Below, piece by piece: positions 12,083 to 41,881 of a DNA stretch of 64,000 bases; the stretch's first letter is position 1; each line of letters begins with the position of its first letter. The notes under the pieces were generated by a model. That model saw nothing but the letters and a program-made list of their open reading frames with translations. It was not told the origin of the DNA and did no database searches. The DNA is taken from NCBI GenBank assembly GCA_038501625.1, contig JAZAYU010000128.1, positions 1 to 64,000 on the forward strand, read 5' to 3'. The position numbers and the translations under genes are program-made. The DNA comes from Corbicula japonica. Taxonomy: Eukaryota; Mollusca; Bivalvia; Venerida; Cyrenidae.

Positions 12083-12455
12083 ATGGCTGACGTAGATAAA
12101 GGTGTCGGGAGAGGTCTCAGTTTTATAGAGCTGAAAGAAAATGCAGAGCGGATCGGTAAATGTTTGGATGAAGAAGAACACACTTCTGCACAAACTACAC
12201 AATTTATGCACATGGCTGACTCTGCTGAAGCTGCCCGAGGAGATCCGAGTTCTACAATGGTGGATGTAAGCATGGAGAAACTCGATCAAGATATAAGTTC
12301 ATATGATGTGAATGCACTAATAACGAATGAAGGAAACGCGAACAAGTGTAAGAAAAATGCGTGCAAAATTATAGCGATAACAACAGTTGCTATAATTCTT
12401 ACCGCTATGGCGGCGGCGGCATCTGTTGGCGTGATTCTCATCTTGAAATCTCAAG
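12083..12455 (+). CDS. exon: cytoplasmic tail and transmembrane anchor
   Basis: Encodes residues 1-124. The tail is acidic and polar, with F-I-E-L-K-E-N (14-20), D-E-E-E-H (29-33) and S-S-Y-D-V (72-76), and no recognised kinase or adaptor motif. Residues 94-121 are a hydrophobic run rich in Ile, Ala and Val, preceded by a basic cluster at 88-95. No signal peptide precedes it, so this is a signal anchor. The exon ends TCTCAAG before a GTTAGT donor, phase 1; reading on would hit a stop at once. The ATG directly follows TTTTTCAG, so it may be the first codon of an internal exon after a 5'-UTR exon; a further upstream coding exon cannot be excluded. Confidence 0.8.
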
Positions 12456-12639
12456 GTTAGTTGCAGTTTTGTAAGTAAAAACAGAACATTAAATTTAATG
12501 TGTTATTCATTGTGTTAAAATGTTTCAAATATAAAAAATGGTTTTATTTCTTATACGTTTTGTATTAATTTCGTTAAGAGACATACAATTATATTTAGAA
12601 GACAAAAATAAGTTATATATTGCAAAAATCGTGAAATAA

Positions 12640-12840
12640 GCATGAGGCATGAAACATCAGGAATGGCCCCATCCACCAGCCACAGCCTCCCCACACAGCC
12701 AAAAAAGTAGAGAGGAGAAGAGAGAAGAGACCATGGTTATACAATGATCAGTTTCAAAATAGACGCCACAAACTATTTACGAAAGTAAGATGGTACGGTC
12801 AGTGGCAAAACAATTCGCCAATTATTTGTGGGCGTTTCAA
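12640..12840 (+). repeat. SINE-like repeat family S2 copy
   Basis: Body from ATCAGGAATGGCC through CACAGCCTCCCCACACAG, an AGAGAGG-type purine stretch, AATAGACGCCACAAAC and GGTACGGTCAGTGGCAAAAC. It sits between the membrane exon and the first CCP exon and runs in the gene's direction. Confidence 0.65.
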
Positions 12841-12940
12841 CCAGATGTTTTAGAAGTAGTATGGATAACTTGAAAAAGGTTGGTGTATTATTAACTTGTT
12901 ACTGAAATAATTCATTTAATAAGTCCATGAATGCTTGTAG

Positions 12941-13031
12941 CGGAAAAGTGTGAGCCTGTAGCGTTACGTGGAGGAACAGTGACCTATTCTGGAAAAAAGC
13001 CAAGATACGAGGGATCATATGCACACTATAG
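12941..13031 (+). CDS. exon: first half of CCP/sushi domain
   Basis: Residues 125-154 begin A-E-K-C-E-P, giving CCP cysteine 1, and end at a G-S-Y-A-H-Y-R segment that fits the G-x-x-Y/F strand before cysteine 2. Acceptor GCTTGTAG, donor GTATGT. Enters in phase 1 and leaves in phase 2, so the exon pairs only with one starting in phase 2; the exon at 20280 does. CCP domains are often split by a phase-2 intron at this place. Confidence 0.85.
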
Positions 13032-13599
13032 GTATGTACAACTCTTAAATAAATATATTATTTTAATGTATTCATTTGAATAGTGTTAATCATAAATGTC
13101 AGTGAGAGTAATACTACCATATCGATTAGCGCAATACTACCATATCGCTGAGCGCAATACTAACTTACTTCTTTTCAGTTTGTGAATGGTAATAAAAATC
13201 ATTTTTCATGGTATTATTCAATTAACTTTAAAGGAAAAAAAGAAGCCCAGAAAACTGACTGCGTCGATCACACTCGTTTAAATATTAAAAACAATCGAAC
13301 CAGAATAAACGAATGGGAAATTAAAGATATACTCAACAAAATCTTTATTTGATATAGAACGGAAATGGTTATTACCGAAACTTAAGAATTATTAATTGTT
13401 TTAAATGCAGTACTTAAGCAAAGCATTTCTTCATTACACTGAATTGAATGTACCGTATAATATCAAATGATTAACTAGGTGTAGCCGGAATATTTAAACC
13501 ACCAAACTTGCCAGATTATAGAGTCCTTTAAAATTGTATTTGCTCTAAACGAGAAGGTAACACTACAAAAAACACAAGGTATATATTCCAGAAAGATAA

Positions 13600-13690
13600 A
13601 TATGCATATTAAGAATCGCCACACTCGGAAAACACAGCCTCCCCACGCAGCGAAAAAGTAGAGAGGAAAAGAGAGCATGTGTTTGGTATT
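13600..13690 (+). repeat. SINE-like repeat family S2, 5'-body fragment
   Basis: Carries AATATGCATATTAAGAATCG, CACAGCCTCCCCACGCAGCG and GTAGAGAGGAAAAGAGAGCAT, then departs from the family. Confidence 0.6.
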
Positions 13691-13971
13691 TAATATAACC
13701 AATTGCTAAACTAGCTGGAATGTTGCAACTACGTAAATTAATAGCTTAAACGTACGGAAACAAATATTTGAGTGCTCTTCAAACACAAATATTTACACTT
13801 CAACTTAACTCTACGATAAAGTCTTATTCATCAAACGGATCATAATTTCTATTGGTAAACAGTGGGACGTATTATTTTATAAGGCGTGGCTAGAGTAGAG
13901 CCGTTCATAATGTATTGGATGTTGCACAATGTTTTGACGTGTGAAGTCACTGAGCAAACACGCTTTGCCAC

Positions 13972-15303
13972 TAGTCTAGATCATCTAGACGTTCTGTCAT
14001 TGATCAGTGTCACACTGCTCTGACGAACGTCTAGAGACATCGCTATATAAAAAGTCTGACCGACAGGTGGCGCTTTTGTATGGTAAACAAATCCAAAATC
14101 AATCGCGATTTCTAATGAAATTTGTTAACAGTGCTTCAACCGTATTTCTCCCACACTGGGCAAAGTGAAATTAAGGTAATAAGATATCGAGCTACAAAAT
14201 CAGGTATATGGTTTATAAACAAATGACGTTTAAGTACTTGCCTACCCGATTTTACATAAATGAATACAAATATATGACTCGCCGTTGCTGCCTCTTCGTG
14301 ATTATGGTATTAGACTGTCACGTTGTATAGGTGGACGGGTGGTCCAGTGGTAACGCGTTGGTCTACAAATCCGGAGGTCGTGAGTTCGAATCCCGAACAC
14401 GGCGCTTGAAATTTATGTAATATACGTCTAGTGTTTCCCATCCAACTTAGTACTGGATCACTTCCAGGAAGAAGAATTTCAGTGCGTGTATCGGTATTAT
14501 AAACCGGGCACGTTAAAGAATCAGAGGGTCTCTTCGAAAAGAGCTGTGGTTGCCTACCCGGATTCCCTGTATCTGTATCTAAAAGCTATCTCTCTATAGT
14601 TATCTGCACCTGTCAGATTTATATCTATATATAGATATATGTGTGTAAATACTCAGTGGTGGTGTTGATATATACTTGTTGATGTCATGAATATGATGGT
14701 AAGGGTAACATACGCTGAATACAGCGATCTCCTATAATGCAGGTAAAAGAAAGTGTACATATACAAAAATCCTTATCCTCTGGTGAAGAGGTGTGCTCCT
14801 ATGAATAATGGTATGGCAGTTGTCATTGTACGGTTATTGATAAAAAGTGAAGAATACCAAAATCTCTCTAACGGAAAAATGCAGTTCAGTCAAACTTTGC
14901 ATAAATAAATCTAATTATGTATGTTTATTATTTATACGTTTAGAAAAGTTAGAACAGTAAAAAAATAGTTTGACCTGAAAATTATTCCAACATTCTACAG
15001 CCAAACACAAAAACAAAGCAACACTTAACATCAAATTGAATGCCTTCCTCAGTTTACTTGAACGCGCCTTTGGGCGCAATAATGCAGTTAAAAATGCGTG
15101 CCCCCGTAGGATAATAATGTTTTATCGATTTCCAGCTGACAGGGCGACAGTCTAAAAAATAATTTTCACAAGACAACAACGCCGATCCATACTAATGCCC
15201 TAATTACAAGCCTCGATTTGGAGTGTCTGACTTTTTAACGAACAATGTCTTCAGACGTACTGATCGCCATTGCGAAATCAGAGCGTCTGAATGATTGAGA
15301 CTA
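13972..15303 (+). mobile_element. TIR element with 10-14-bp target duplication carrying a tRNA-derived SINE
   Basis: The left end TAGTCTAGATCATCTAGACG and the reverse complement of the right end, TAGTCTCAATCATTCAGACG, match with few differences. GCTTTGCCAC occurs immediately outside both ends (13962-13971 and 15304-15313); the direct repeat is 14 bp if TAGT is counted as flank. Ten-base target duplications with inverted ends fit a Mutator-like non-autonomous element. The interior carries the tRNA-like block at 14332-14404 and no transposase. It lies in the intron that splits the CCP domain. A partial inverted relative is at 4060-4713. Confidence 0.7.
14332..14404 (+). repeat. tRNA-like SINE head
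   Basis: Box A GTGGTCCAGTGGTAACGCG and box B GTGAGTTCGAATCCC are both clear. Nearly identical to the minus-strand block at 4279-4352, including flanks, so it is a repeat and not a single-copy tRNA gene. A diverged CTACAAA replaces the CTACCAA of the other copy. Confidence 0.7.
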
Positions 15304-15532
15304 GCTTTGCCACTAGTAGCTACGAAAATGCCAACCTCCGCGCAGTGATTTGCTTCATTTCGCTATTGAAACTGTAAGGGGAAGTAACCACTGCGGGGAG
15401 TTTGCGAAAATGCGTTCCGTCATTCACTGTGTCGTCAACGTTGCTGTTCCAACAGCCATTTGAAAAACCCGTCATATCACGATTTCTTCTAATAATTTCT
15501 GTACTAATGAGAGTATTCATGGGTGTAAATAT

Positions 15533-15687
15533 AAGGATTAAATCGATATTTAATGTTTTTCATTTGGGTATGAAAAACTGTAGAATTGTTTAAATTACGC
15601 GAGAAGCCTTTCGGGCTTCACACACTTTAAACAAACCAACTGTTTTCCATACCCAAATGAAAACCATCAAATATCGATTCAATCCTT
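15533..15687. repeat. palindromic MITE family P1, copy 1
   Basis: Arms AAGGATTAAATCGATATTTA and the reverse complement of its partner at 15660-15687 pair over about 45 bp, continuing through TTTTCATTTGGGTATG. The centre contains a small GAAGCC-TTTC-GGGCTTC stem. The same family is present at 28880-29005 in another intron of the gene. Confidence 0.8.
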
Positions 15688-15904
15688 AAATTATATCATT
15701 TGCATGGATGTCCAAATGTCAAAAAATGAAAATGGAGCTGATTTAATTCAATAAAATACTTTTTACGGCCAGTACTTTGAAATAACAACGTTGAGTTGAT
15801 ACGCAATTAGCATGGTTCATTAAGTTTTTCATAATTCTTCATAATATGGTTGCAGTTACCCGCTCCCAGGTAGAGGCAATAAAATTTGAAATTCACAGTA
15901 GCGC

Positions 15905-16258
15905 TAAAAAGTACATTCTAACGCACTAAATAAATTTCGAGCAATCTGATTGGTCAGATGGCGAAAATTTGCGACCGTAAAATTCCTTGTTTACTGTCGT
16001 TTGACGTTGACGTCATTTCCTGTTATGACAAACAATCCTGAAAAAGGCATTATGGCCGAAACGTCGATGTAATAAAAATGTTGAAGTTTGACCTCTATTT
16101 GGGATTTATTAAACTTGTTTACTGTCGGTAATCTCACTGACGTATGGGTTCCCTTGGGTAATACCGTACCGTTGTTTACTATACGGATAAATAGAACATG
16201 GTACCCGTTTAACATATGGAATGAGGCCCGATTGAGAATAGTATGGAAGCGCGTTAGA
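15905..16258. other. diverged element with short internal direct and inverted repeats; possible Penelope-like 3' end
   Basis: CATTCTAACGCAC (15913) is answered by GCGCGTTAGAAT (16249), and CTTGTTTACTGTCG occurs twice (15988 and 16118). At 16039-16070 the sequence CCTGAAAAAGGC, a short stem and GGCCGAAACGTCGATG resemble the hammerhead-like signature found at the ends of Penelope-like retroelements, but the core base expected at one position is changed. Open frames on both strands here show no domain. Confidence 0.35.
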
Positions 16259-16414
16259 ATAGGAATAACCATGTCGTAATTTTGAAGTTTGCGACGGTAT
16301 ACACAGATTTTAATGGTCTTAAATCATTTTAACGGCGCCGTTAAAAATATTTGCGACCATTAAAATCTGTGTATACCGTGGCAAACTTCAAAATTACGGC
16401 ATGGTTATTCCTAT
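16259..16414. repeat. large near-perfect palindrome
   Basis: AATAGGAATAACCATG at 16259 mirrors CATGGTTATTCCTAT ending at 16414. The arms of about 60 bp run on through TTTGAAGTTTGCGACGGTAT and CACAGATTTTAATGGTC, and the centre includes AACGGCGCCGTT. Likely a MITE, or two facing terminal repeats of a collapsed element. Confidence 0.8.
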
Positions 16415-19400
16415 CTTTAGTCAGTAAAATAACCTGTTACCGATGTCGTGCAGTGATGAACACGTATATCAGGGCTGTCCGATCAACCTTTTTTGGGGTG
16501 TCCCGGTTAGCTCGATTGGTTACGTCGTCGGAATTGCAGGACTGTACGCGTTGTCGCCGTGACGATGCGCCTTCGCTCCAAGCTAGAGGCAAATTATTTG
16601 TTACAATAACAATTTCAGTTTAACATTTTCGTTTCGTACAGAGCGAGAAGTAAATATTTCTAAACTGATGCTAGTTTACTCCCAGTGGCCGACCTCAAGA
16701 TACAGTCTTAACAGCGTTTTGTAGCACGACGAAGTAATAATATTTATCATGCACCCTAATGCTAAGGCTCCTATACCCGCCGGGGTGATATTTGTTTCGC
16801 ATATCGGTCACCGACCCGATATTGCTTGCTCCGTGTTAAGTTTACCATAAAAGCCGAGGACATCTGTAGTCCAATCCGGCGAGACCTCTCATACGTAACT
16901 CCGCCCACTTAGTGACGAACTACTTTCCGGAAGCCATTGTAACTAATGTAAACAAATATCGATAACGAAACATTTTTCCGTATTTCACTTTATTTCATAA
17001 AATTTGAAAACAAATAATATTGTTTTTTGTCTTTTTTTTTGAGAAAAACGTTTATTAAACACTGCCTATTGGACTTTCTCCGGTAATTCGTCTGTTTTCG
17101 TCAGTTTTCAAATGCGTTATTCCTGTAAATTCGTGGCCCGTACGATTGTTGTTGATGGCGAGATGTGGATTCATTTTTTTCATGGGAAACTCTGTAAAAG
17201 AAGAGAAAAAAACACTTCGTTTAAAAAAAACTTTGGCTGACTCCAAAAAACACTTACATTTTGAAACATGTCTGCAAAAGCAATAATAATTATGACAGAC
17301 TGAAGAGTGCAACAGATTGCTTAAAAACAAGGTTTTGTGAAATAAAATTACTGGTTTACAATTATTTTGTGACAGAATAAAAGCGGAAGAAGAATTAAAC
17401 CTCTTGTTGTAAACTGTCAATAGAGAATAACAGTTTTTTAAAGTTTATTTAACAGTGTTTTTCTGCACCTTTTTGAGAAGGGATTGGTGAAATACTAAAA
17501 CATTTTCACTGAAAATGAGAATTTCAATTGAATTAATCAAATGTTGAAAAAAATTATTATTTTTAAAGAGTCTACAGATTGATCACCAATCCCCCAAATT
17601 AAATTACAGACTACTTTATTTTTCATCATAAGCAAGTAACAGATATTTTGGCTAGAATGAAGTTTACCGGTATGATTTACATAGAGCTCGGGCAATAATA
17701 TATGTATTTTATGCAAGCGGGGTGTGGGGGCGGCAGCACCCATTAACCACTATATTCTGGACTAACTGTTCAATGAATAAATGAATTAAAATGGCAGCGG
17801 GGTTATGGGAGGTCAACATCAAATTTTACGGTAAACTGCAGGTGTCCCGATATTTTTTTCTTGCTAATGTTTTGGGAAAAACCATGGTTTGCAATTAGGA
17901 ATGGGACTGATGGCTCTGAATGTTCTTCATGCAGGCCGAAATTGTTAATGCATAGTCTGTTGCCTTTTTTTAACAATGAAATCTTTCCAAAAATCTTGAG
18001 TAATGATTTATCTTATAAACGTTGAAGTTTAAAAGATGACAATTTGGAGCAAGTGTTTATTAAGTTTCTTCACAATATTTTATAAAATTTATGCACACGG
18101 TCCATTTACTAATTATTTAGCCTACTATTTTTAAACCTAAAGTAGGAAGTGTTTTTCAATAATTTAAAATTTCTGTCGTAGTATATAAACATGCATAATT
18201 ATGATGTTGTAAAATAAAACTCTGATTTAAAATTTTTACCTTTTTTGTCTCACAACTCCAGTACGGTCAGTACCCCTAGTAAATTCGGCATGACAGAGAC
18301 TTCCATTCATAGGGTTAGAAAATCCTGGTGGGACCAACCTAAAAATGATATAAACCATGTTACTGTTTTATGATATGCATTAAAACACATCGCAGGTATA
18401 GGGTTTTGAGGCAAAACTCATAAAAAATATACAAAGTTATGGTTAATAGTCAATTTTTAATTAACCTTTAACTCCAAATATACACTTTTAATGCATGGTC
18501 CTCCAGTGTAGAACCAGATCAACTGGCATTATCCTTGATTTGTGATCTCGATTCGCATTAGTTGCATCTTGGTCAGAAATAACATAACGAATATAAAAGC
18601 GAACAGTTTAGATGGAACAAATGAGGCAGCTGATCTGGATCTACAATATTCACTCAGTGGATGCAATAAAGGTTTTTACATAATCAAATACTGGACAAGC
18701 TCTTTTCTGCCTTTTTTGAGAAAAAAGACCCTTTCAAAAATTTGGAAATTCATGTCAAGAATCATTCAAAATAAGTAAAAAATGTAAAACAACTGTAATT
18801 GTAAAGCGATTGATAAATCCTGTCTCGTACTGTCCTAAAACATGTGTTTTTGACTCGCACTAAGCATCCAGATTGCGTGAACATGTTCGGCATCAAAAAT
18901 TTTATCTTTCAATAGGATTTATTTTTAATTGGGAGAAAAATCAAAATTTGCAAATGGGAATGCATCTGACCCATGGTTTGCACAGCAAAAGGGCTGTGGA
19001 ATGGAATCACTCATATTACCGGACTAAAATTGAAGATTTTTCTTTGTAACTTTTGTAGATCTATTTGCACTTCTGATTTCAAAATGTGTTTATTCAACTG
19101 ATAAAATTGTCCTGTCAATGGATTGTTGGGTAAACAGGTGAAAAAGTAACCTGAAAATGAACAATTTTAAACACTGTCAAATAAACATTTTAAATTAAAA
19201 ATTACCTTAATAATACATTTGAGATATCATCCTTCATCACTGAACAGGTCAAGCGTTGACTGATCTCATTCTCAGTTACTGTAGTGGGTCTGCTGTAGAC
19301 CCTGTTCTTTTGAAGACCAGCATAGATCTATCTGATGAAACAAGTGATGTTTGCTATCATGGCCCCTCTTTAGTCTAATGGATATTCAAATTCGGTGCTG

Positions 19401-20022
19401 CGTTGATGCCTCATGTTATTAAATATGTCTCAGTGGCATTTCCTTGTCCAATGTCAAAAATGATAACGATGACACAAGTCACTGAACTGGATTCCAGAAA
19501 CATAGCGATACTTCACTTTTCCGTTGCCACTTTATTTTGTTATAAATCCGATTTCTGATTAAAACAGTTGTTTCTCGATATAGTTTTCCACGAACAATTG
19601 TTAATTTATCAAATCACACCGAAATAAACACAAGTTTTTGTCAGAAAAAAATGGCGTCCACTACCTCGCTAAATAAATTTGACTGATCATATTCCTGAAC
19701 AATAAACGTTCGTTTGAGCTTATTTTACTTCGTTTATTTTAAATTTGGATAAGAAATGAGTAGTTTATCGCTTGAAAATGTACTAATTTCTCAAAATTTT
19801 ATGTAAAACATAATAAAAGGGGCCGCGATAAATTAGAACTATTTATCGGCGCGTAGGAAATACCGCGTACGTTGTTAACGGTTGTTTTTGAAAAAATCAC
19901 GGTGATAAAACCTTTCATAATGAATTTAGCATACACAAAATCACAGCGGTAAACCTATTCCATGTGAATTTAGCATACAGTAGAAAAACATCGCTATTTT
20001 AGTGGTAAGTGCATGATAAATA
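16415..20022. other. intronic stretch without recognised gene or element
   Basis: Part of the intron between the two CCP exons. A 121-codon minus-strand frame at 17055-17420 is rich in Ser, Phe, Cys and Asn with no domain I recognise. A short block near 18560-18675, beginning CATCTTGGTCAGAAATAAC, recurs diverged near 63450-63580, so some of this is dispersed repeat. Confidence 0.4.
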
Positions 20023-20168
20023 GAATAACAGGTTACTGTCTTGCGATATAAGTGTTATCAGGCTCGGCCGATATGGGGGCGGAGGAGCTCGGCAGAGCCT
20101 CGCCCCTCCGCTCCCCATATCGGCCTCGCCTGATAACACTTATATCGCAAGACAGTAACCTGTTATTC
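20023..20168. repeat. 146-bp near-perfect palindrome beside the second CCP exon
   Basis: Left arm starts GAATAACAGGTTACTGTCTT and the right arm ends with its exact reverse complement. Pairing continues through TGCGATATAAGTGTTATCAG with almost no mismatches; the GC-rich centre (GGCCGATATGGGG ... CCCCATATCGGCC) has only small differences. It lies 111 bp upstream of the exon at 20280. The high arm identity suggests recent insertion or active maintenance. Confidence 0.9.
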
Positions 20169-20279
20169 TCTATATATATACTTATATATATTGTTGTAAA
20201 AATACACGACTTCCATATTAAACAAATATAAGAATACATGCACACAAAAACGTTTTAATTGCATTTCTTCCTTTTTTAG

Positions 20280-20377
20280 TTGCGACGAGGGGTACAGCCT
20301 GTTTCCAGCCACAAACGATTCATATTCGGAATGTTTGAAAAATCTTTCATGGAGTCCGGAACTTCCTAGCTGCTACA
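20280..20377 (+). CDS. exon: second half of CCP/sushi domain
   Basis: Completes the CCP domain (residues about 155-187): S-C-D-E-G-Y-S-L holds cysteine 2, S-E-C-L-K-N-L-S-W holds cysteine 3 and the conserved Trp, and P-E-L-P-S-C-Y holds cysteine 4. All four cysteines of the fold are therefore present with the first-half exon. N-D-S and N-L-S are potential N-glycosylation sites. Acceptor CTTTTTTAG; donor GTAAGT, a strong match; leaves in phase 1, so it can join any EGF exon. Confidence 0.88.
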
Positions 20378-20529
20378 GTAAGTAATGCGCACAATATTTC
20401 ATCTATATAGGCACGCATATGTGTAAACAACCATTATGGACTTTGGGTGTATTGCTAGAAACAGTTAAATTATTATTTAAAACAGCCGTCAAATTGAACT
20501 TTAAAACCATATCGAATATGACTTATATG

Positions 20530-20720: not shown

Positions 20721-21280
20721 AATATATATACTCAACAAAAATGTTTTGCAACTTTTGCATTTTTTAACAATTAAAAACAACGAAGTAAACAAGTGGTACA
20801 AAACTATATCTAATATGAAAGAACTATTGTCCCAGCATAATATCCTTTATGCAAATTGAAGCTTTTATCAATAATGATTGAAAACGAATGACGAAGATTA
20901 TTGGATATAGGCTGTCACTTTTTCACAAATCAGCAGATTTTATCCCAAATGAGTGAGAAGTAGAAATTTCGTGAAACTCCACTGACAGTGTAAGAACATT
21001 CTAAGTTGTCAAAAGCACATAAGAAATCTGTCTTACTACATAATTTTATGTTTACATTGTGTCTCTGTTATGGATTTAATAAAACATTATGATTTTGTAC
21101 CATTTGTCTTTTTTATTTCCCTTCCATGCAAAACAAAGAGAAAGTTGCAATACATTTTAGTTGAGTATATTATTGCATGTTACCGAGAATTCAAACGGCA
21201 AACATTAAATAAGGAACGTACAATATGATATGGGTTATTGAACACTATCCAAAATGATTAAAATGTCATACTCGTTTCAG

Positions 21281-21394
21281 ATGTTGATGACTGTATGTCC
21301 AGCCCCTGTGGGAACAATGCGACATGCAATGACATGGTCGGTCGATACAACTGTACATGTGCTGATGGCTTCATGGGAGAATTATGTGAAATCA
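21281..21394 (+). CDS. exon: EGF1
   Basis: The most diverged unit and probably the founder-side domain (residues 188-225): begins D-D-C-M-S-S-P-C, then C-G-N-N-A-T-C, Y-N-C-T-C and G-E-L-C-E. All six cysteines present. C-M-S-S-P-C fits the O-glucose motif and C-G-N-N-A-T-C the O-fucose motif. Donor GTAAAA. Phase 1 on both sides, 114 nt, like the rest of the array. Confidence 0.9.
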
Positions 21395-21635: not shown

Positions 21636-21749
21636 ACATAAATGAGTGCGATTCAGGACCTTGCAAAAATGGTGGATCTTGTTCAGATAGTATAAACGGG
21701 TATACTTGCACTTGTCAACAAGGGTTCGAAGGAATCAATTGTGAAACTG
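21636..21749 (+). CDS. exon: EGF2
   Basis: [11 protein letters not shown] core, then N-G-Y-T-C-T-C and G-F-E-G-I-N-C. Six cysteines. First of the closely related I-N-E-C units. Joined to EGF1 the first codon becomes Asn; after other exons it would be Asp, which is one of the calcium-ligand positions. Confidence 0.9.
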
Positions 21750-21868: not shown

Positions 21869-21973
21869 ACATTAATGAATGCGCTACTGAACCATGCAAA
21901 AATGGCGGACTATGTGCAGAAAATGTGACTGGGTATACTTGCACGTGTCAACAAGGAATCAACTGTGAAACTG
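21869..21973 (+). CDS. exon: EGF3, shortened by three residues
   Basis: 105 nt, 9 nt shorter than its siblings, so the frame is kept. The missing codons are Gly-Tyr-Glu of the usual Q-G-Y-E-G-I-N-C, leaving C-Q-Q-G-I-N-C. The loop between cysteines 5 and 6 is therefore cut from eight to five residues. C-A-T-E-P-C has Thr instead of Ser, so the O-glucose motif is weakened, and G-G-L-C lacks the O-fucose acceptor. The intron before it is only 119 bp. Confidence 0.85.
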
Positions 21974-22507: not shown

Positions 22508-22621
22508 ATATAAACGAATGCGCTTCTACCCCATGCAAAAATGGGGGATTATGTGCAGATAATGTAAATGGGTATACATGCACTTGTCAACAAGGATACG
22601 AAGGAATCAACTGTGAAACTG
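22508..22621 (+). CDS. exon: EGF4
   Basis: [33 protein letters not shown]. Six cysteines, calcium-binding layout intact, O-glucose motif present, O-fucose acceptor replaced by Leu. Acceptor ATTTCAG, donor GTAAAA. Confidence 0.9.
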
Positions 22622-23078: not shown

Positions 23079-23192
23079 ACATTAACGAATGCGATTCAGG
23101 ACCTTGCAAAAATGGTGCATCATGTGTAGATAATGTAAATGGGTACACATGCACTTGTCAACAAGGATACGAAGGAATCAATTGTGAAACTG
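23079..23192 (+). CDS. exon: EGF5
   Basis: [25 protein letters not shown]-glucose and O-fucose motifs present. Donor GTACCA departs from the usual GTAAC of the array at position +4 and may be weaker. Confidence 0.9.
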
Positions 23193-23742: not shown

Positions 23743-23856
23743 AAATAAACGAATGCTCTTCAAGACCTTGCGAAAACGGTGGATCATGTGCGGATAATGT
23801 GAACGGGTATAACTGCTCTTGTCAACAAGGCTATACAGGAATCAACTGTGAAACTG
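23743..23856 (+). CDS. exon: EGF6
   Basis: [31 protein letters not shown]. It carries all three Notch-type motifs: C-x-S-x-P-C, C-x4-S-C and C-x2-G-Y-T-G-x2-C. N-C-S is also a potential N-glycosylation site. Starts with Glu because the first intronic-side base triplet is GAA. Confidence 0.9.
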
Positions 23857-24720: not shown

Positions 24721-24867
<147 letters not shown>

Positions 24868-25363: not shown

Positions 25364-25537
<174 letters not shown>

Positions 25538-26026: not shown

Positions 26027-26140
26027 ACATAAATGAATGCGCTTCAGCACCGTGCAAAAATGGTGGATCATGTGCAGATAAAGTGAATGGGTATACATGC
26101 ACTTGTCAAAAAGGATACGAAGGAATCAATTGTGAATCTG
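26027..26140 (+). CDS. exon: EGF9
   Basis: [36 protein letters not shown]. The flanking introns are paralogous to those around the dead exon at 34104, including an S2 copy about 200 bp downstream in both, so the two exons descend from one block. Confidence 0.9.
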
Positions 26141-26855: not shown

Positions 26856-26969
26856 ACATAAACGAATGCTCTTCGGCGCCGTGCAAAAATGGTGGATCTT
26901 GTGCAGATAATGTGAATGGGTATAACTGCACGTGTCAACAAGGCTACGAAGGAATCAATTGTGAAAATG
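26856..26969 (+). CDS. exon: EGF10, with weak splice donor
   Basis: [32 protein letters not shown]-glucose and O-fucose motifs present. The donor is GTTAAA where siblings have GTAACA; if it is not used, translation stops at a TAA four bases on (GAA-AAT-GGT-TAA). The product would be a membrane protein with ten EGF units and no lectin domain. Whether this donor works is not known. Confidence 0.85.
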
Positions 26970-27930: not shown

Positions 27931-28026
27931 CCAATTTGTAACCTTATATTTTCTTTATTTTTATACAAAAAAAATTTGTAAAGCCAATTTGTAACCTTAT
28001 ATTGTCTTTATTTTTATACAAAAAAT
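27921..28026 (+). repeat. 53-bp tandem duplication at an exon's splice acceptor
   Basis: ATTTGTAAAGCCAATTTGTA recurs 53 bp later, so the T-rich tract before the decayed EGF exon at 28039 is doubled. Confidence 0.8.
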
Positions 28027-28038
28027 GTTTAATTTCAG

Positions 28039-28115
28039 ACATAAATGAATGTGCATCTGTGAATTTCAACAATTTCTACAATGAATACAACAATATTTAT
28101 TATAAATTTGTGTAA
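28039..28115 (+). pseudogene. truncated EGF exon
   Basis: A good acceptor (ATTTCAG) and the first codons I-N-E-C-A-S-V are kept, then the sequence passes directly into GAATTTCAACAA, which in other blocks lies in the intron after the exon (compare 25048). The rest of the domain is gone and a TAA closes the frame. This is a deletion joining exon to downstream intron. If the acceptor were used, the transcript would be truncated. Confidence 0.8.
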
Positions 28116-28428: not shown

Positions 28429-28542
28429 ACATAAATGAATGCTCTTCAGCACAAAGCGCAAATGGCGGATCTTGTGCAGATAAAGTGAACGGGTACACAT
28501 GCACTTGTCAACAAGGATACGAAGGAATCAATTGTGAAAATG
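28429..28542 (+). CDS. exon: EGF11, lacking cysteine 2
   Basis: I-N-E-C-S-S-A-Q-S-A-N-G-G-S-C: the P-C-K of other units is replaced by Q-S-A, so cysteine 2 is absent while splice sites, length and frame are intact. In the EGF fold cysteine 2 bonds cysteine 4, so cysteine 4 is left unpaired. The O-glucose motif is lost with it. It may be an exon on the way to decay, or a unit with a free thiol. Donor GTAACA. Confidence 0.8.
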
Positions 28543-29277: not shown

Positions 29278-29391
29278 ACATTTATGAATGCGCGTCAGGA
29301 CCGTGCAGAAATGGTGGAGTATGTGCAGATAGAGTGAACGGGTACAACTGCACTTGTCATAAAGGCTATACAGGAATCAATTGTGAAACTG
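29278..29391 (+). CDS. exon: EGF12
   Basis: First unit of the second subfamily: [31 protein letters not shown]. Six cysteines. O-glucose and O-GlcNAc (G-Y-T-G) motifs; no O-fucose acceptor. Tyr replaces the usual Asn before E-C, which may weaken calcium binding. Confidence 0.88.
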
Positions 29392-32808: not shown

Positions 32809-32813
32809 TTCAG

Positions 32814-32927
32814 ACATAAAGGAATGTGCATCAGGTCCTTGCAGAAACTGTGGACAATGTGTAGATAAAGTGAATGGGTATTCTTGCACTTGTCAAAAAG
32901 GCTATAAAGGAATCAATTGCGAAACCG
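32814..32927 (+). CDS. exon: EGF13, with a seventh cysteine
   Basis: [34 protein letters not shown]. The first Gly of the usual N-G-G is Cys, giving seven cysteines. The O-glucose motif is kept; O-fucose and O-GlcNAc acceptors are absent. The acceptor TTTCAG is supplied next to an inserted repeat. Confidence 0.85.
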
Positions 32928-33277: not shown

Positions 33278-33391
33278 ATATAAATGAATGCGCATCAGGT
33301 CCTTGCAGAAATGGTGGAGTATGTGCAGATAAAGTGAACGGGTACAACTGCACTTGTCAAAAAGGCTATACAGGAATCAATTGTGAAACTG
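33278..33391 (+). CDS. exon: EGF14
   Basis: [36 protein letters not shown]-glucose and O-GlcNAc motifs. The intron before it (33.05-33.27 kb) is paralogous to the one before EGF15 (35.34-35.59 kb). Confidence 0.9.
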
Positions 33392-33475
33392 GTAACGAAT
33401 ATATCTGATTAAACATTAATTCGTTTTTCCAATAAATAATAATTTTTTGTGACGGACGGTTAGTAATTTTATGGG

Positions 33476-33545
33476 TTTATAGTCTGTAATTACTGAACGT
33501 ATTCAACCGGCTTGCACATTTACCCCCCCCCCCCCCCCCCCGATT
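33476..33545 (+). repeat. short dispersed repeat with C-run
   Basis: GGGTTTATAGTCTGTAATTA, then TATTCAACCG and a C-run of about 18. A related copy with a short C-run is at 43555-43612. Confidence 0.6.
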
Positions 33546-34103
33546 ATTACATTAAATTCCATTACCGGATAATTTCAGGTAATAATTTTGAAGAAAACAT
33601 ACAATATTTTATGATGTTTTATGATATTTTTGGAAAATATTTGTATAGTTCGTATAATGACAAATACACATTTTTATCATTCTGGTATCAATCCGGCATA
33701 TAATCGAAAGTATGTGGTTGGTTTTAGATACTAACGATATTGATTATTAAGACGTTCAGCAAAAACATTCTTATTCTAGCGTTATATTTTTCACTTAATA
33801 TTTAGTTTTCTGTCACATTATTGAGATAAATCTATGAACGTGGTCAAGAAGCAGGTATAGCATTAATTACAACATTCTCAGAATTGAACTTGTATTACAT
33901 GTAACACTTAAATCAACATGCTCAATATTGCTTATTCGGATCAGTGTTGTTTCCATTGCTTTATTTTCGAACAAAATCATCATAACATCATAACATCATC
34001 TTTATTTTGTGAACCATGGTTTACTTCAATGCAAGAGATGTTATCCAAAACCACCTAACTGAATAACGTGCAACATTAAGAACTGAAGAATGATTCATTT
34101 CCG

Positions 34104-34216
34104 ACATAAATGAATGCGCTTTAGCACCATGCACAAATGGTGGATCATGTTCAGATAAAGAAAATGGGTATACATGCACTTGTCAACAAGGATACGAAGA
34201 TACAATTGTGAATCCG
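34104..34216 (+). pseudogene. dead EGF exon with lost acceptor and frameshift
   Basis: The acceptor reads TTTCCG instead of TTTCAG, and the exon is 113 nt instead of 114 because a base is lost in G-Y-E-G-I-N (reads GGATACGAAGATACAATTG). Six cysteine codons remain visible allowing for the shift. It belongs to the first subfamily and is the duplicate of EGF9. Confidence 0.88.
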
Positions 34217-34459
34217 GTAACATAAAATCCGATTGAAAAGTGGTTTTGTACATTTTTTAATAATACGGTTTTGTATGGCAGGCGAAGTAGTGTTTGTTTG
34301 TTTTTTACTGTAATATCGACCATTAAGATTTAAGATCAGACTGAATAAAATTTTACGAATCAAATTATTCACATACAAAAGAACAACGGCTAACCTTTTA
34401 TCGTCTGAGAATTTCATAAATACACAAATTATTATTAGTATTTTGAAAATCGATAAATA

Positions 34460-34640
34460 TGCAAATCATGAATGGCCACAACAAGCAGACACAGCCTCCA
34501 CTCACAGACAAAAAAGAGGGGATGGAAGAGCGCACGATATTACAGTTTTCAAAATAGACACCACAAACAATTAACGAAAATGGGAACCCGAGTGGTGATC
34601 GCCTTGGAACGGTCAGTGGCAAAACTATTTAACGGTTTCC
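34460..34640 (+). repeat. SINE-like repeat family S2 copy
   Basis: CAGACACAGCCTCCACTCAC, GAGGGGATGGAAGAGCGCAC, AATAGACACCACAAAC and GGAACGGTCAGTGGCAAAAC. Duplicate, by position, of the copy at 26340. Confidence 0.65.
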
Positions 34641-34679
34641 ATTACGTTTTTTTTTTCAAACATAACATTCACAACACTT

Positions 34680-34830
34680 TAAAATATGCATATCAGGAAT
34701 TGTCACGGAGAGCATAGTTTATAAGATGACCAATTTCAAACAGAAACCACAAAAAATTACCAAAAAATGAGAACCCGAGAGGTTGTCGCCTTAAAACGGT
34801 CAGTGGTAAAACAATTTGTAAAGACAGCGA
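34680..34830 (+). repeat. SINE-like repeat family S2 copy with internal deletion
   Basis: ATGCATATCAGGAATTGTCA passes straight to CGGAGAGCATAG, skipping the A/C-rich body, then runs to AAAACGGTCAGTGGTAAAAC. Confidence 0.6.
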
Positions 34831-35139
34831 AATGTATAACTTGATCCTTTTCTTTATAAATAAACATTAATTATATGTTCCTCTGAGGTTGACTAAAATA
34901 ACAAAATGACGTTCAATATCGCAAATACATCTTGCTATTGCAAATTTGTATATTCGTCATTTTTACGAGCCAAATTGCAGATTGGTTTATCAAGAGTAAT
35001 ATTTATGTATTGTTAGGAACAAAACATCATACTTCGTTTGTGGATGATGGTGTACGCGACTGGAAGAGATGTTTTTCAAAAGCAACCTAAGGCTTATATA
35101 TAACATGCTAAACTTTGAACAGAAAAATGCTTTTTTTGG

Positions 35140-35253
35140 ACATAAACGAATGCGCATCAGTCCCTTGCAAAAATGGCGGATTATGAGCAGATAAAATAAA
35201 TGGGTATACATGCACTTTTCAAAAAGGCTATACAGGAATCAATTGTGAAACCG
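35140..35253 (+). pseudogene. dead EGF exon with lost splice sites, stop and lost cysteine
   Basis: The acceptor reads TTTTTTTGG, the cysteine-3 codon has become TGA (GGA-TTA-TGA-GCA), the cysteine-5 codon has become TTT (T-C-T-F-Q), and the donor GGTAAC has become GTTAAC. Several independent hits show it has been non-functional for some time. It is the duplicate of EGF13. Confidence 0.9.
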
Positions 35254-35594
35254 TTAACAATTATGCTTTGCTGAAAAAGCTTTTCGTGCTTTGTCTTTCT
35301 CTGCTGAATATTCTAAATGTAGGATGATTTTGTGACGGTCTGTTACATAAATTCCAGTTTGATGTCCACACGTATGATTAAAGTGAGTGACAATTACACT
35401 AAACAAATGATTAGCAGACATTTCCCATTGAACATTCAATCATTGGAGAACGCCAACGATTTCTGAAATGAATTAAGAAATGTAATCTAGTCAAAATAAC
35501 ATGTGTTCTTTCTATCCCGATTTAACTAAAACGAAAATTGTTTGTCCCTCGATGATTTTGTAAACATTCAACAAGTTGTTTGTGTTCATTTTAG

Positions 35595-35708
35595 ATATAA
35601 ATGAATGCGCATCGGGTCCTTGCAGAAATGGTGGATCATGTGCAAATAAAGTGAACGGGTACAACTGCACTTGTCAAGAAGGCTATACAGGAATCAATTG
35701 TGAAACTG
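35595..35708 (+). CDS. exon: EGF15
   Basis: [35 protein letters not shown]. All three Notch-type motifs are present, as in EGF6. Asn takes the hydroxylatable position after cysteine 3. Confidence 0.9.
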
Positions 35709-35719
35709 GTAACAAATAC

Positions 35720-35803
35720 ATCATTTATGTTACATGTATTACTTTGTGGCTATAAATTTGCTGTATGCTATTTAACGCCAATAAAGTTTATGTTATGTTA
35801 TGT
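35720..35803 (+). mobile_element. very short LINE 3' tail
   Basis: An insertion of about 80 bp ending AATAAAGTTTATGTTATGTT, flanked on both sides by ACATC. The paralogous introns after EGF12 and EGF14 continue from ACATC into TGAT without it. A microsatellite-like tail after AATAAAG is typical of the 3' ends of some non-LTR elements. Confidence 0.6.
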
Positions 35804-35925
35804 TACATCTGATTAAAAATTGATTCGTATTTCCAATAAATAATAATTTTCTGTGACGGACTGTTAGTGCAATTATTAATATCTGATATCAACGCCAAAG
35901 CTAGCGTACCGAATTAAAACGCAGC

Positions 35926-35976
35926 CTTGTCAACAAGGCTATAAATACATCACTTGTGAATACTGAAATAGGTAAA
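35926..35976 (+). pseudogene. fragment of an EGF exon 3' end
   Basis: TTGTCAACAAGGCTATAAAT and ACTTGTGAATACTG followed by GGTAA recall the last third of an EGF exon and its donor; the rest is missing. Confidence 0.55.
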
Positions 35977-36136
35977 AATTACATCTGGTTGAAAATTAAT
36001 TCGTATTTCGTATCCCACAAACAATTATTAAATTTAAAAATTTTCTATGACGTAGATCTGCGGCTAGTCTAATTATTCCAAAACCATCTTCCTGTATACC
36101 ATGTCCTAGTTTGAACAGAAGAATGTTTCATTTCAG

Positions 36137-36250
36137 ACATTATTGAATGCGCATCAGGACTTTGTAGAAATGGTAGAGTATGTTCAGAGATTGGGAATGG
36201 GTACAAATGCACGTGTCAAAAAGGCTATACAGGAATCAATTGTGAACATG
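36137..36250 (+). CDS. exon: EGF16
   Basis: [33 protein letters not shown]. Six cysteines with good splice sites. It departs from its relatives at several normally constant places: Ile for Asn before E-C, Leu for Pro before cysteine 2, Arg for Gly. The O-GlcNAc motif is kept. Last domain before the lectin. Confidence 0.85.
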
Positions 36251-37167
36251 GTAACAATTACGTCTGTTTAAAATAGTTTTCTTACTTTGTTTCTCTTTGT
36301 TTAGTATTATTACAATACCATAAAACATGCTTTTGCCTTTCAATGATTTTACTTGGAGTCACTGGGGTAACAGTCAGCGTTACTTAAATAGAGATTTGTT
36401 GTCGGGACAATAACTTAATACTAGTTTAAGCTCTCCTGTGAAGGTAGCCTTTCAAGATTGTACTAAGGATTGTTTGAGTGACATTGGAAGTGTAACTGAA
36501 ATAGAAATTCGTTGTCCGTTGTCCGCCAAAAACTTGATTCAAATTTGAGTTATCGTCATCAAACCCCGTGTGTTGATAGATAGTGTTGTGATCTTCTTTA
36601 TGATTGTATATGAGATCATTGGAGTCGATTTCACAGCTTTGTTTAAACAATCCATCCGAAACTGTATTTTAGACTAGAAAAACGGTTTTCAGCCCGCTTT
36701 GAGTTCAAGGAGCCTGTGTTAAATGCTTGTTTTGGATTGTAATTGGGGTCATTGCAGTCAATGACACTAAAGTTAATAGTAATAATAGAAAATATTAACC
36801 AACCAGACGATAATTAATTATTATGTGAGCTTATTTCACCAAGCTCGGTAAATGAGTAACAAGTGTAAATATCTGGCTTGGGAGATAATCTGGAGTTGAG
36901 TCTGTGTTCGCAGTTTCTTAAGTGTCATAAAATTAAAAAAAAACATTATAATAATAATAATTATATTATGACCTTAATTTCAAACGCATAGTCATGATCA
37001 AAGAAATGAAATTACACGAATTGTTGCCAGAATTTTTGGAAGCATGCTGGAGAATCTGCTTTATTTGTTATTTTTTGACAATTATTGAAAGGGGATAATC
37101 CAACATTCGTTTGTGATTATTAAAAGCCATACAATGTAGATACTTGGTTATTTACATTATATTGCAG

Positions 37168-37235
37168 ATCACATCTGTCGTGGTTCGTCTTGCTACTTCA
37201 TCAGTAACATCACTGGAGATATAAATTATGCTCTA
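37168..37235 (+). CDS. exon: lectin domain, first strand
   Basis: Residues 793-815: H-I-C-R-G-S-S-C-Y-F-I-S fits the extra N-terminal cysteine pair (796, 801) of long-form CTLDs, though with closer spacing than usual, then N-I-T (a potential N-glycosylation site) and I-N-Y-A-L at the start of helix 1. Acceptor ATTGCAG, donor GTAAGT, phase 1 in and phase 0 out. Confidence 0.8.
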
Positions 37236-38012
37236 GTAAGTAATAAGAGAGCTTTTCTCAGTAATTTGAATTTCCGTCATCATTTTAAGACTTCATTTAA
37301 TATAATCTACAGATGACACAAAGGAAATAGTTCATGCTAAAATATAATCTAATTGAAAAAGAACCAAACTGGTACATAATTGTGTAATAGAGTCTGTAAA
37401 AATTCTTCTGAATTTTGATGTAGGATAGAACTTGTAATAAACTAATTAGGTAATTGACAGTTGCTAACACACTGTCACGATTGCTAGGAATAAGACAGCC
37501 GGGAAAAAACAATACACAAGTAATTCTCCTCTGTTTAGACATATTTTAACAACAAAATGTCACTGACTAGAAACTTACATAAACTAGTTCGTTTACAATT
37601 AATGGTGTCAGATGGTATTTGCTTATGAAAATTTTATTACTGTTACCTTGCCTTACAATAATGACAAAATTTACTCAACCGGAGCGATATAGTTGTACAA
37701 TTACATGTATTAGCAAATATATGTAGATGTATGTGTGTTGTCATTGGCAAATCAACTGGATATATACAAAACAATTAAAAGCGAAGATAGTTTTGTAAGT
37801 TTAAGTAGATAACCTTTTCATGTGGTTATGATAAGATCTTAAATGAACATATAAAATCGACACTGAGGTCACTGATACATATTTATGTAAAACTGTTCAA
37901 TATTGTTTTCGAAAGCGGTATCGTACCCGAATCCTGGACTATAGGCGTCATAAACCCAATATATAAAAATAAAGGCGATATTACAAAACCTGAAAATTAT
38001 AGACCGATCACA

Positions 38013-38657
38013 TTGTTAAGCTGCCTTGGTAAACTTTTTACTTCAATAATTAATAATCGCTTAACAAAGTTTATGGAAGCAAACAATCTTTTAAACAATT
38101 GTCAGGCTGGATTTAGAAAAAATCAGTCTACAAGTGATCACATTTTTGTACTTCATAGTATCATAAATATTTTAAATAACTCTAAAAAGAAGCTATTCTG
38201 CGCTTTTGTGGATCTTAAGCAAGCGTTTGATACGGTCTGGAGGGAGGGACTCTGGGAAAAGCTCATTCAAAATAATATAAATGGCAAATGCTTAAATGTT
38301 ATTATGAACATGTACAAAAATATCAAATCTTGTGTTAAATTGAACTCTACATATTCTAATTTTTTCATTAGCAATATCGGTGTTCGTCAAGGGGAAAATT
38401 TATCTCCCCTTTTATTTTCTATCTTTCTAAATGACTTGCATACCTATTTTGCTGAAATCGACAATATACAAGGGGTTAAGATTTACGATGACTTACAAAA
38501 TTTTCTTAAAATGTACATATTACTTTATGCGGATGATACGGTTATATTATCTGAACACGAACAAGATTTTCAAACTGCATTAAATGCTTACGAGCAGTAT
38601 TGCGACAGCTGGAAACTAACTGTATTATCTCAAAAACAAAAATGTTATTTTCAGTAA
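38013..38657 (+). pseudogene. LINE reverse transcriptase fragment
   Basis: Longest open piece of the retrotransposon, about 214 codons, open further upstream in the same frame. It covers the polymerase region from the fingers motif to just past Y-A-D-D-T-V-I-L. The catalytic aspartates are intact (D in F-V-D-L-K-Q-A-F-D, D-D in Y-A-D-D). It ends at a frameshift; the continuation is in another frame from about 38.66 kb. Confidence 0.9.
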
Positions 38658-39440
38658 AGGTAGACAATCTACTAATTACAGATTCTTTTTTAAAAATGAT
38701 CAAATAGAAATAGTAAATGAATTTAAGTATCTTGGTGTTATATTTACAAGAAACGGTTCCTTCTTAACTACAAAGAAGCACTTAGCAACACAAGCAACAA
38801 GGGCCATGTACAGTTTAATAAGAAATATTAATAGACTCGAATTACCAATCGATTTACAAATTGACCTGTTCAAGAAAACAATTAAACCTATTCTCCTTTT
38901 TGGTGCCGAAATATGGGGATTAGGTAAAATCGATATTCTCGAAAGAGTACAATTACGATTCTTAAAATATATTCTCAAAATGAAACGTTCAACTCAAAAT
39001 AGTATGGTTTACGGAGAAACTGGTTGCTACCCGTTGAGTATCGATGTCGAAGAAAGAATTATTTCTTTTTGGTCTAGAATATGTATTTGTGATAATTTGC
39101 AATCAAGTAAACTATCAACTGTTATTGACCTGTTATCAATACGTGTACAATTTAGCTCGAGAATTACATGGAAACAATTTAAAATTACGCTTTCCTTGAA
39201 TACATACTGTAAAATCAATTTTTATAAAAACAGGCTTAATCAATATTTGGGAGTCTCACTCTTTTCCTAACCATAAGTGGCTGAAATTAGCAGTGAGACA
39301 AAAACTTAAAGATCTTTTTTATAAATGACTGGGCATCTTTAATCGATCAAACCAATAAATGCTTAACTTATAAAATTCTTAAACATAACTTTGGAATAGA
39401 AAAATACTTAAGTGATACACCGAAATCATATCTTTTTTAC

Positions 39441-39728
39441 ATGATAAGATTCAGGACCAGAAATCATAGACTTCCAGTCGAAACGGGCAGCTGGTCAAGA
39501 ATAGACTATAACCTTAGATTCTGTAGCAAATGCCTAAATAAGTTGGGTGACGAATTCCATTATCTATTCCAGTGTCCTTTTTTCGAAAATAAGCGTAAAA
39601 TGTACATTAAGAGATACTTTTATCAAAGACCAAATACATTTAAAATGAATCAGTTATTTAACACACAAAATAGAATAGAATATTTAAATCTCTGCAAGTT
39701 TGTCAAAATAATTTTGCATGAAATATAA
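39441..39728 (+). pseudogene. LINE ORF2 C-terminal fragment
   Basis: About 95 codons with R-F-C-S-K-C, G-D-E-F-H-Y-L-F-Q-C-P and a basic tail, followed by the 3' untranslated part of the element. Its Cys-His spacing matches the remnants at 2.1 and 57.6 kb. Confidence 0.8.
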
Positions 39729-40704
39729 CGATGAAATATCATACACATATATATGTAGACGTATATTGTGCACGAATTGTGTATTCTGTTAAGATAATAT
39801 GTTACGGTTTATTTAAAATGCAAAACCAAATCTGTTGGTATCATTTTGACTCTCCGATGTATTTTGAAATCTACATTGTCTATTCCATGTTGTAACTACT
39901 ATATACCAGATTTTATATCACTTTTTTCAGCGTGTACTGCATGCTTGTTCATCCTTTATTAATCGTTAAATTTCTTACAAAATATTATATGTCAGATTGT
40001 ATATCACTTATTCCAGTATGCTTTGTACGCTTGTACCACCTTTGTAACTGTTAATTTCTTGTAATCCTCATTTTGTCATTTAAATGACATGAGTGAATAA
40101 ACGTGTTTTGACTTGACTTGACTTGTACGTTTTAGGTTACCAAACTTCACAAGCCTTGTTTTACTTTAAGCTTTCTATGCAAATCTGCACTTTTTTTAAC
40201 AAACTGTTACTGTTGTTAACAGAGCAAGTATTAAAATAATCGGTTTAATTATACAACAAGGTAGGCCTGTGGACCATTTTTGAGTATTTTGTTCGTAGAA
40301 CACAAAAATATCTTAAAGTTTAAAATACATCAGTGCAACCTGGGCAAGGTATCACATATAAAAGTTATATTGTTGTTATGTTAACAATCATTATTAGAAA
40401 TACAAAATACACTTAACTTTTGTGGTAAAACTTCAATCGCCTTAAAATAGGCGATAAACATATGTAGAAACCGTTTGTTCTTGATGTGACAAAATAGTAA
40501 CTTGTACACGATTAACCGATTTGCAAAATATTCGACTTATTGAATAAAGGAACAACGAAAAATCAAAAAATGGAAAATAGCTGAATTATTTTGAATTTCA
40601 AATTGAACAGAGTGCAAAAGTGACACGTTTTAAATATACTAAATATATTTTGAATTTCACATTTCTTGCTTGTAGATCAGAATAATAAAGATGAGTTATA
40701 AATT

Positions 40705-40785
40705 CTCACAGGCCCAATCAAACCGAGCCTGCAATTTTGTCATATTTGTCGTGTTCGATGTTCTCTTTTCATCTATTTAAACAGT
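40705..40785 (+). repeat. dispersed repeat family S3, 3' fragment
   Basis: CAATCAAACCGAGCCTGCA, then CATATTTGTCGTGTTCG and CTCTTTTCATCTATTT. Shows where the family's 3' end lies. Confidence 0.6.
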
Positions 40786-40797
40786 TTGAATTTGAAA

Positions 40798-40908
40798 TTT
40801 AAAAATATACTTAAAGAAATTAGATACTCAACTTCTTTAAACACGAATTATTTTTCGTGTTTAAAGAGGTTGCTAAACTATTTTCTAAGTATAAATTTTT
40901 CTGAAAAA
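40798..40908. repeat. hairpin repeat
   Basis: TTCTTTAAACACGAA at about 40834 pairs with TTCGTGTTTAAAGA at about 40855, with weaker outer pairing to TATACTTA-type ends. It lies about 90 bp before the second lectin exon. Confidence 0.6.
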
Positions 40909-40993
40909 ATAAGATAAAGCTTTTAGATCAGATACGCATGAAATGTTTAGGAATTAAAGTTTATTTTTGAACGGTTATTGATTTCCTTTGCAG

Positions 40994-41084
40994 ACGCAAT
41001 GCAATAGGTCGGGTGGCTATCTTGTTGAAATTGAAGATGATGCGGAAAACAAATTTCTTTACGAAAAAGTAAAAAGTTTACAAT
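40994..41084 (+). CDS. exon: lectin domain, helix region
   Basis: Residues 816-845: T-Q-C-N-R-S-G-G-Y-L-V-E-I-E-D-D-A-E-N. The C-x5-G-x-L-x-x-I pattern is the start of the canonical CTLD, with cysteine 818 expected to bond 914. N-R-S is a potential N-glycosylation site. Enters phase 0, leaves phase 1 at a GTAAGC donor. Confidence 0.88.
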
Positions 41085-41660
41085 GTAAGCCTTTTTCTTT
41101 CTGGTAATTTCCGTACTTTAAGTGTTGCAAAGATCATGATAATTTCGAATGACTTCTAGTTTACTTCCATGTAAAATACTATGTTGAAGACCATTTAAAC
41201 GCCCACCATACATCAATTCTTTTTAATTCTGATTAAACGTGGTTTTTACACAATTTAAGTTCTTTTTAAAGAATGCATGTTTTATGAAATGTTTAGGAGA
41301 TTCGTAAGTAATGTGTTGTGTCTAGTCTCATGGTGTTTATGTTCTCATCTTCTTATAACCAATTTGTAATTATATATATATAATTGAAGTATTCCATTCA
41401 AAGTTTGCTTAGCAACCGGTTAAACTCACATCATTATAAAGTCTACATTATATATTCAAATTCTAAATAAATCATGAAAAATCATTTCAAAACCATTGAA
41501 ACATTTGTCTATATTATCTTATAAATCACTAAATAGGTACTAAGAAACTAATAACTGGCATAAAGCAAAATATTTGAACAGAAACATTGTTGTTGCCTAG
41601 CAAATTTTGAGTAGTATAATAGGTCTTTATATTTTGACAATATTACTTAAAATTTCACAG

Positions 41661-41881
41661 ACTACGAATTCTATATTGGTTTGAACGATATCAAACAAGA
41701 AGGTAACTATTCTTGGTTTGGAACCAATCGTCTGTTGTCTCAAACCGGCTATTCAGGATGGGATAGGTGGCAACCTAGCGACACCAATCATGAAGATTGT
41801 GTAGTATTAAGACAACACGGAAAATGGAATGATATAAGATGTTGGGGTCCATTTCCATACATTTGCGAATTTAAATCTTAG
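41661..41881 (+). CDS. exon: lectin domain, ligand-binding half and stop
   Basis: Residues 846-918 followed by TAG. F-Y-I-G-L-N-D (849-855) is the core strand usually written W-I-G-L. The long-loop region reads D-R-W-Q-P-S-D-T (880-887) where sugar-binding lectins have E-P-N or Q-P-D. Then H-E-D-C (889-892) and K-W-N-D-I-R-C (900-906) with an intact W-N-D calcium motif, and Y-I-C-E-F at the end. Cysteines 892/906 and 914 complete the fold. This is a near-complete calcium site with an unusual Q-P-S, closest to galactose-type. Confidence 0.9.

Follow-up and report, generated by a model that had tools for sequence, protein, structure and literature searches.

In a 64,000-nt window of the Corbicula japonica genome (assembly GCA_038501625.1, contig JAZAYU010000128.1, positions 1 to 64,000 of the forward strand), we identified 22 exons on the plus strand between 12083 and 41881 that probably form a single gene encoding a type II lectin receptor, comprising a CCP (Sushi) domain, a stalk of sixteen EGF units and a C-type lectin domain (CTLD) at the tip. 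The exons were rebuilt independently from the raw translations into one open frame, which runs from the ATG at 12083 to a stop codon ending at 41881, with AG/GT at all exon borders (introns GT-AG). The joined coding sequence is 2757 nt long and encodes 918 aa before a single terminal stop, on which the CCP starts at residue 125, the EGF array at 188 and the CTLD at 793. The first-pass annotation had proposed a type II protein of the order tail, membrane helix, CCP, sixteen EGF units and CTLD, with a joined length that is an exact multiple of three. The length is divisible by three and the phases agree across the 22 exons; the order is borne out by the joined frame and by Pfam scans of the whole chain and of its ends, and the type II layout by a helix at residues 96-121 and a CTLD at the C-terminus. 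An AG immediately 5' of the ATG suggests a separate exon for the 5' untranslated region. An earlier model based on regular expressions (15 EGF units, 880 aa) was superseded once a repeat search and nhmmer revealed the EGF exon E11 and the dead exon R2.

To delineate the stalk, we scanned the 918-aa protein with Pfam, in which EGF matched 16 stretches (3.4e-90) and EGF_CA also matched 16 (4.7e-49), and searched the window with nhmmer, using a profile built from 14 of the EGF exons, which match by construction. The nhmmer search revealed 18 full-length EGF units, of which sixteen can be spliced in frame and two (R1 and R2) are dead. All lie on the plus strand. The first in-frame unit, E1 (21281-21394), is divergent, with 46-54% identity to the other 114-nt units, and is followed by E2 (21636-21749), E3 (21869-21973; 105 nt, three residues shorter), E4 (22508-22621), E5 (23079-23192), E6 (23743-23856), E7 (24737-24850), E8 (25407-25520), E9 (26027-26140) and E10 (26856-26969; donor GTTAAA). 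E11 (28429-28542), found by the repeat search and nhmmer, has lost Cys2 and retains five cysteines, its splice sites and frame being intact; on its own it matched Pfam hEGF (8.8e-8) and reached 24.5 bits for EGF_CA, under the cut-off of 27. The array continues with E12 (29278-29391), E13 (32814-32927; seven cysteines), E14 (33278-33391), E15 (35595-35708; 96% DNA identity to E14) and E16 (36137-36250; without an Asx site). The count of sixteen units made in the first pass therefore stands for in-frame exons, but the six cysteines are complete in 14 of the 16 (E11 and E13 being the others) and two more EGF exons are dead. R1 (34104-34216) has the acceptor CG, is one base short and frame-shifted, and most resembles E9; R2 (35140-35253) has the acceptor GG, the donor TT, an in-frame stop and another changed cysteine. 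Both dead exons sit between E14 and E15, the nearly identical pair. nhmmer also reported weak, short EGF-like fragments at 28024-28060 and 35926-35962. Supports in the exon tree were low, so no order of duplication was drawn from it.

We then compared the EGF exons with one another and with their flanks. Across E2-E16 (15 exons, 105 pairs), mean DNA identity was 0.822 inside the exons versus 0.477 and 0.446 in the aligned flanks. Per-site differences were 0.119, 0.133 and 0.275 at the first, second and third codon positions, respectively (fourteen 114-nt units without E1), and the pooled nonsynonymous difference (pN) was 0.123 compared to a synonymous difference (pS) of 0.385 (78 pairs from 13 units; E1, E3 and E11 left out). 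The high exon identity relative to the flanks, the third-position excess and the low pN indicate that the EGF exons are translated, selected sequence, and the units are under coding constraint. Counting 15 stalk units, with E11 outside the count, we found the Asx-hydroxylation pattern C-x-[DN]-x4-[FY]-x-C in 13 and the calcium-type start [DN]-x-[DN]-[EQ]-C (with E and D likewise accepted) in 12, together with patterns for O-glucose (13), O-fucose (8) and EOGT (5). The start and the Asx site are those of calcium-binding EGF units (EGF_CA, Notch type). Among solved structures, the nearest relatives of E9-E12 were Delta-like 1 (1.1e-63) and Notch1 (2.6e-51), over repeated stretches.

Exon 1 (12083-12455, plus strand, ending in phase 1) contains the start codon, a 95-residue tail and the membrane helix (residues 96-121), whose top 19-residue hydropathy was 2.58, compared to 0.45 for the best stretch elsewhere. 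NCBIfam and Pfam recognised no domain in this exon, and the gene model carries no signal peptide at its N-terminus. A single-sequence structure model of exon 1, used for the helix only and of very low confidence (mean pLDDT, predicted local distance difference test, 41.6), placed one of its five helices at residues 86-115. Within the first 94 residues, the pattern [DE]xxxL[LI] matched once (the dileucine-like DVNALI at residue 75), and a search for YxxPhi, NPxY and immunoreceptor tyrosine-based inhibitory motif (ITIM) patterns yielded no match. The CCP is encoded by two exons on the plus strand. The first half (12941-13031, phase 1 to 2) had no Pfam match alone and the second half (20280-20377, phase 2 to 1) scored 25.9 bits for Sushi, rising to 35.4 bits when the halves were joined over a 7248-nt intron. 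The ectodomain contains fifteen N-glycosylation sequons.

These exons may also yield more than one product, namely a short membrane-CCP form arising from retained introns or alternative polyadenylation and forms with variable EGF exons. We regard this as a possible, somewhat doubtful addition to the receptor reading rather than a replacement for it. Because each of the sixteen EGF exons is phase 1-1, the frame survives whichever of them are included; the EGF donors are mediocre, and reading through the donor of the second CCP exon meets a stop after two codons. Another explanation is a matrix or shell protein: the ectodomain of the type II protein would be shed to act in adhesion or biomineralisation. 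Mollusc shell-proteome papers come up under EGF, lectin or CCP terms, a point in its favour. The clear membrane helix and the 95-residue tail argue against such a protein, which we consider unlikely.

The CTLD is encoded by three exons on the plus strand: a (37168-37235, phase 1 to 0, beginning DHICRGSSCYF), b (40994-41084, phase 0 to 1) and c (41661-41881), the last carrying the QPS, EDC and WND motifs and the stop codon. Against a Lectin_C cut-off of 22.6 bits, exon b scored 16.6 and exon c 52.2 alone, b and c together 75.6, and all three 77.8, which places the C-terminal piece within the C-type lectin superfamily. Exon b was recognised by inspecting the translations. Exon a proved the most difficult to establish, as its short N-terminal hairpin lacks the usual tryptophan; it escaped Trp-based patterns and was revealed by a Cys-Tyr pattern. 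It had no Pfam match alone and added just 2.2 bits to Lectin_C, a small gain explained by the start of the Lectin_C match near the end of this exon. When it was joined over the 3758-nt intron, however, phmmer scores rose from 43.6 to 56.6 bits for Mincle and from 40.8 to 52.4 bits for DC-SIGN. Within 36251-40993, exon a alone fitted its pattern, and none of 100 Markov controls yielded a candidate, the pattern having been written post hoc. The idea that only half of the lectin domain is present was ruled out, since exons a and b fit in phase and spacing and exon a lifts the phmmer scores. A reverse-transcriptase element lies on the plus strand at 37809-39728, in the intron between exons a and b; it is split into three open reading frames (ORFs), the first matching RVT_1 (2.3e-35) and the other two without a convincing Pfam match.

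The lectin domain retains the Glu of EDC and the WND motif, and QPS replaces QPD. WND is thus present without the canonical EPN or QPD sugar motif, which is not required of all members of the superfamily. A QPS-bearing lectin from crayfish showed stronger binding to galactose than to mannose (PMC9638144). The clam CTLD, with QPS and WND, probably binds glycans, and by analogy with the crayfish lectin we would guess at binding of the galactose type. Among single-CTLD chains in the PDB, Mincle scored best in phmmer (56.6 bits), whereas an MRC2 chain came first (49.2 bits) when exon a was omitted; the CTLD subgroup is therefore not settled. The mannose receptor was dropped as closest relative, as its whole-chain score sums several CTLDs and the best single-CTLD chain was that of Mincle.

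To evaluate the continuity of the gene, we examined the introns at the module junctions, which measure 485, 903 and 917 nt. All three are shorter than 1 kb, which favours one gene; we hold a single gene to be likely and infer that the exons are spliced into one mRNA. The competing explanation is that two or more genes are present, comprising a membrane-CCP gene from 12083 to roughly 20.4 kb and a gene for a secreted EGF-CTLD protein starting at 20.4-21.3 kb. The 903-nt intron at the CCP-EGF junction contains four polyA-like hexamers, but it would have to hold a terminator, a promoter and a first exon, and the donor of the second CCP exon (GTAAGT, phase 1) fits E1. With home-made scans run without a positive control, a strict search for first exons that resemble a signal peptide and end in a phase-1 donor found none on the plus strand in 12456-37167 or on the minus strand, and returned one candidate in 20 Markov controls (in 1 of the 20). 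The middle setting found none on the plus strand in 12456-40993. Across the settings other than the strict one, plus-strand counts (0, 1 and 4) did not exceed minus-strand counts (3, 5 and 6). One of the looser candidates lies shortly before E1, at 21070-21178; this weak signal-peptide-like ORF, whose donor scores 3 of 7, gives the two-gene reading its one real opening. Another candidate overlaps E5. Taken together, separate genes appear quite unlikely.

Several observations weigh against a single receptor gene of this design. EGF and CCP modules in animal genes are usually phase 1-1, so the phase agreement is weak evidence and the matching phase 1 adds little for one gene. The EGF exons have middling donor scores (2-4 of 7; E1, 2) compared to 5-6 in the other exons, and the cysteine numbers of E11 and E13 are odd. 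The looser signal-peptide settings yield 1 and 4 plus-strand candidates, including the one at 21070-21178 just upstream of E1, and each of the three junction introns contains polyA-like hexamers (1, 4 and 2), which AT-rich DNA would be expected to produce. Only a slight charge bias surrounds the helix (four K+R in the 15 residues before, three in the 15 after), and the sole dileucine-like match in the tail could have arisen by chance. In the lectin head, the customary N-terminal Trp hairpin is missing, and a Ser stands in for the Asn or Asp of canonical EPN or QPD. Finally, Sushi and Lectin_C were absent from the whole-protein Pfam lists up to E values of 1 and 10, although separate scans of the two ends recovered both (the N-terminal piece matched Sushi at 1.6e-7 and the C-terminal piece Lectin_C at 1.3e-21). 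We presume that filtering caused by the EGF array accounts for this omission, and the whole-protein scan is accordingly not fully sensitive. That the gene is a pseudogene in progress, as the two dead EGF exons, the two odd-cysteine units and the reverse-transcriptase element in the lectin intron might suggest, is very improbable, as all 22 used exons keep their frame and splice sites, no stop interrupts the exons for the tail, the CCP or the CTLD, and the EGF units show a third-position excess, though this records past as well as present selection.

For the single type II receptor, we propose the following mode of action, holding each functional step with less confidence than the architecture. 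The N-terminal 95 residues would be cytoplasmic and the single helix would serve as the anchor, with the CCP next to the membrane and the sixteen Notch-type EGF units forming a long, calcium-stiffened rod. Such a rod, Notch-like and sixteen units long, would place the lectin tens of nanometres off the membrane, where the CTLD at the far tip would bind glycans carried by microbes or cells. Binding of a ligand would result in adhesion or uptake, perhaps via the DVNALI motif; with one dileucine-like match and no other motif in the tail scan, uptake is a guess. Stalk length would evolve as individual phase 1-1 EGF exons are duplicated or decay. We tentatively suggest, at less than even confidence, a lineage-specific type II lectin receptor acting as a 'fishing rod' for glycans, its reach tuned by the birth and death of single EGF exons and its stalk length differing between individuals and species; the present array would then show intact, damaged and dead units next to one another. 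If the single transcript is true, the locus would offer a clear case of stalk length altered by exon duplication and decay, and selection on receptor reach would become testable in the immunity of invertebrates, whose expanded lectin repertoires have received little study.

Elsewhere in the window, we observed an 8.4-kb minisatellite (47525-55936; 52-bp unit, 160 copies, 89% matches) containing several long ORFs, a tandem repeat of about six 145-bp copies (8709-9560), and a tRNA-Pro (TGG) gene on the minus strand (46277-46349; ARAGORN and Rfam).

We compared the predicted protein with known lectin receptors and EGF-rich proteins. Selectins (vertebrate group IV) are type I proteins with a signal peptide and the order CTLD-EGF-CCP from the tip. 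The first-pass contrast with them was right: the clam protein has the order membrane helix, CCP, sixteen EGF units and CTLD, in a type II layout with no signal peptide. Selectins and the bivalve 'P-selectin' genes use the same CTLD, EGF and CCP modules as the clam protein. Among the 'P-selectins' of Sinonovacula and Mercenaria (Venerida), which are mostly CCP, type-A members carry CCP plus CLECT or EGF domains (PMC9484242). The clam protein has one CCP, sixteen EGF units and the CTLD last, in a type II layout. It shares with the group II type II receptors (ASGR, DC-SIGN and Mincle) a single N-terminal helix, here at residues 96-121, and a C-terminal CTLD, with its membrane orientation predicted. 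Group II receptors have a cytoplasmic N-terminus and no CCP or EGF, their stalk being a coiled coil or plain neck, whereas the clam ectodomain is not neck plus CTLD only but includes a CCP and sixteen EGF units. From the mannose receptor family (group VI), MRC1 topped the whole-chain list (8e-22) with a best single domain of 45.3 bits (MRC2, 46.1 bits); members of this family are type I proteins with many CTLDs and ricin-type and FN2 domains.

The EGF units resemble those of Notch and Delta, including the Asx, O-glucose and O-fucose patterns, but the clam protein is type II with a lectin head, and no DSL, LNR or intracellular Notch (ankyrin) parts appeared in the Pfam scan of the 918-aa chain, which also missed Sushi and Lectin_C. 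Teneurins, which are type II proteins with EGF units, matched only at the EGF level (EGF_TEN); the clam chain ends in a CTLD and has no NHL/YD-repeat ectodomain after its EGF units. Searched against a large protein collection that is apparently poor in animal proteins, the CTLD region gave four matches among 36 candidates, none with Sushi or EGF in the precomputed Pfam assignments. The order membrane helix, CCP, sixteen EGF units and CTLD did not turn up in literature searches on such architectures, which did not extend to animal proteomes. SEEC proteins (group XVI, SCP-EGF-EGF-CTLD) and lecticans (EGF-CTLD-CCP) carry EGF directly before the CTLD (PMC514892). The clam protein shares this adjacency; SEEC proteins and lecticans have few EGF units and other partner domains, and the CCP of lecticans follows the CTLD. 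Bivalves have many lineage-specific CTLD combinations (category C), some with sushi domains (PMC10140915), and the clam architecture may belong among them. If the exons do form a single transcript, the gene would extend the known designs of lectin receptors by an EGF rod of type II topology with a lectin at its tip. Given the known bivalve lectin combinations and the CCP-bearing 'P-selectins' of Venerida, the predicted receptor looks like a new arrangement of well-known modules rather than a new kind of machine.

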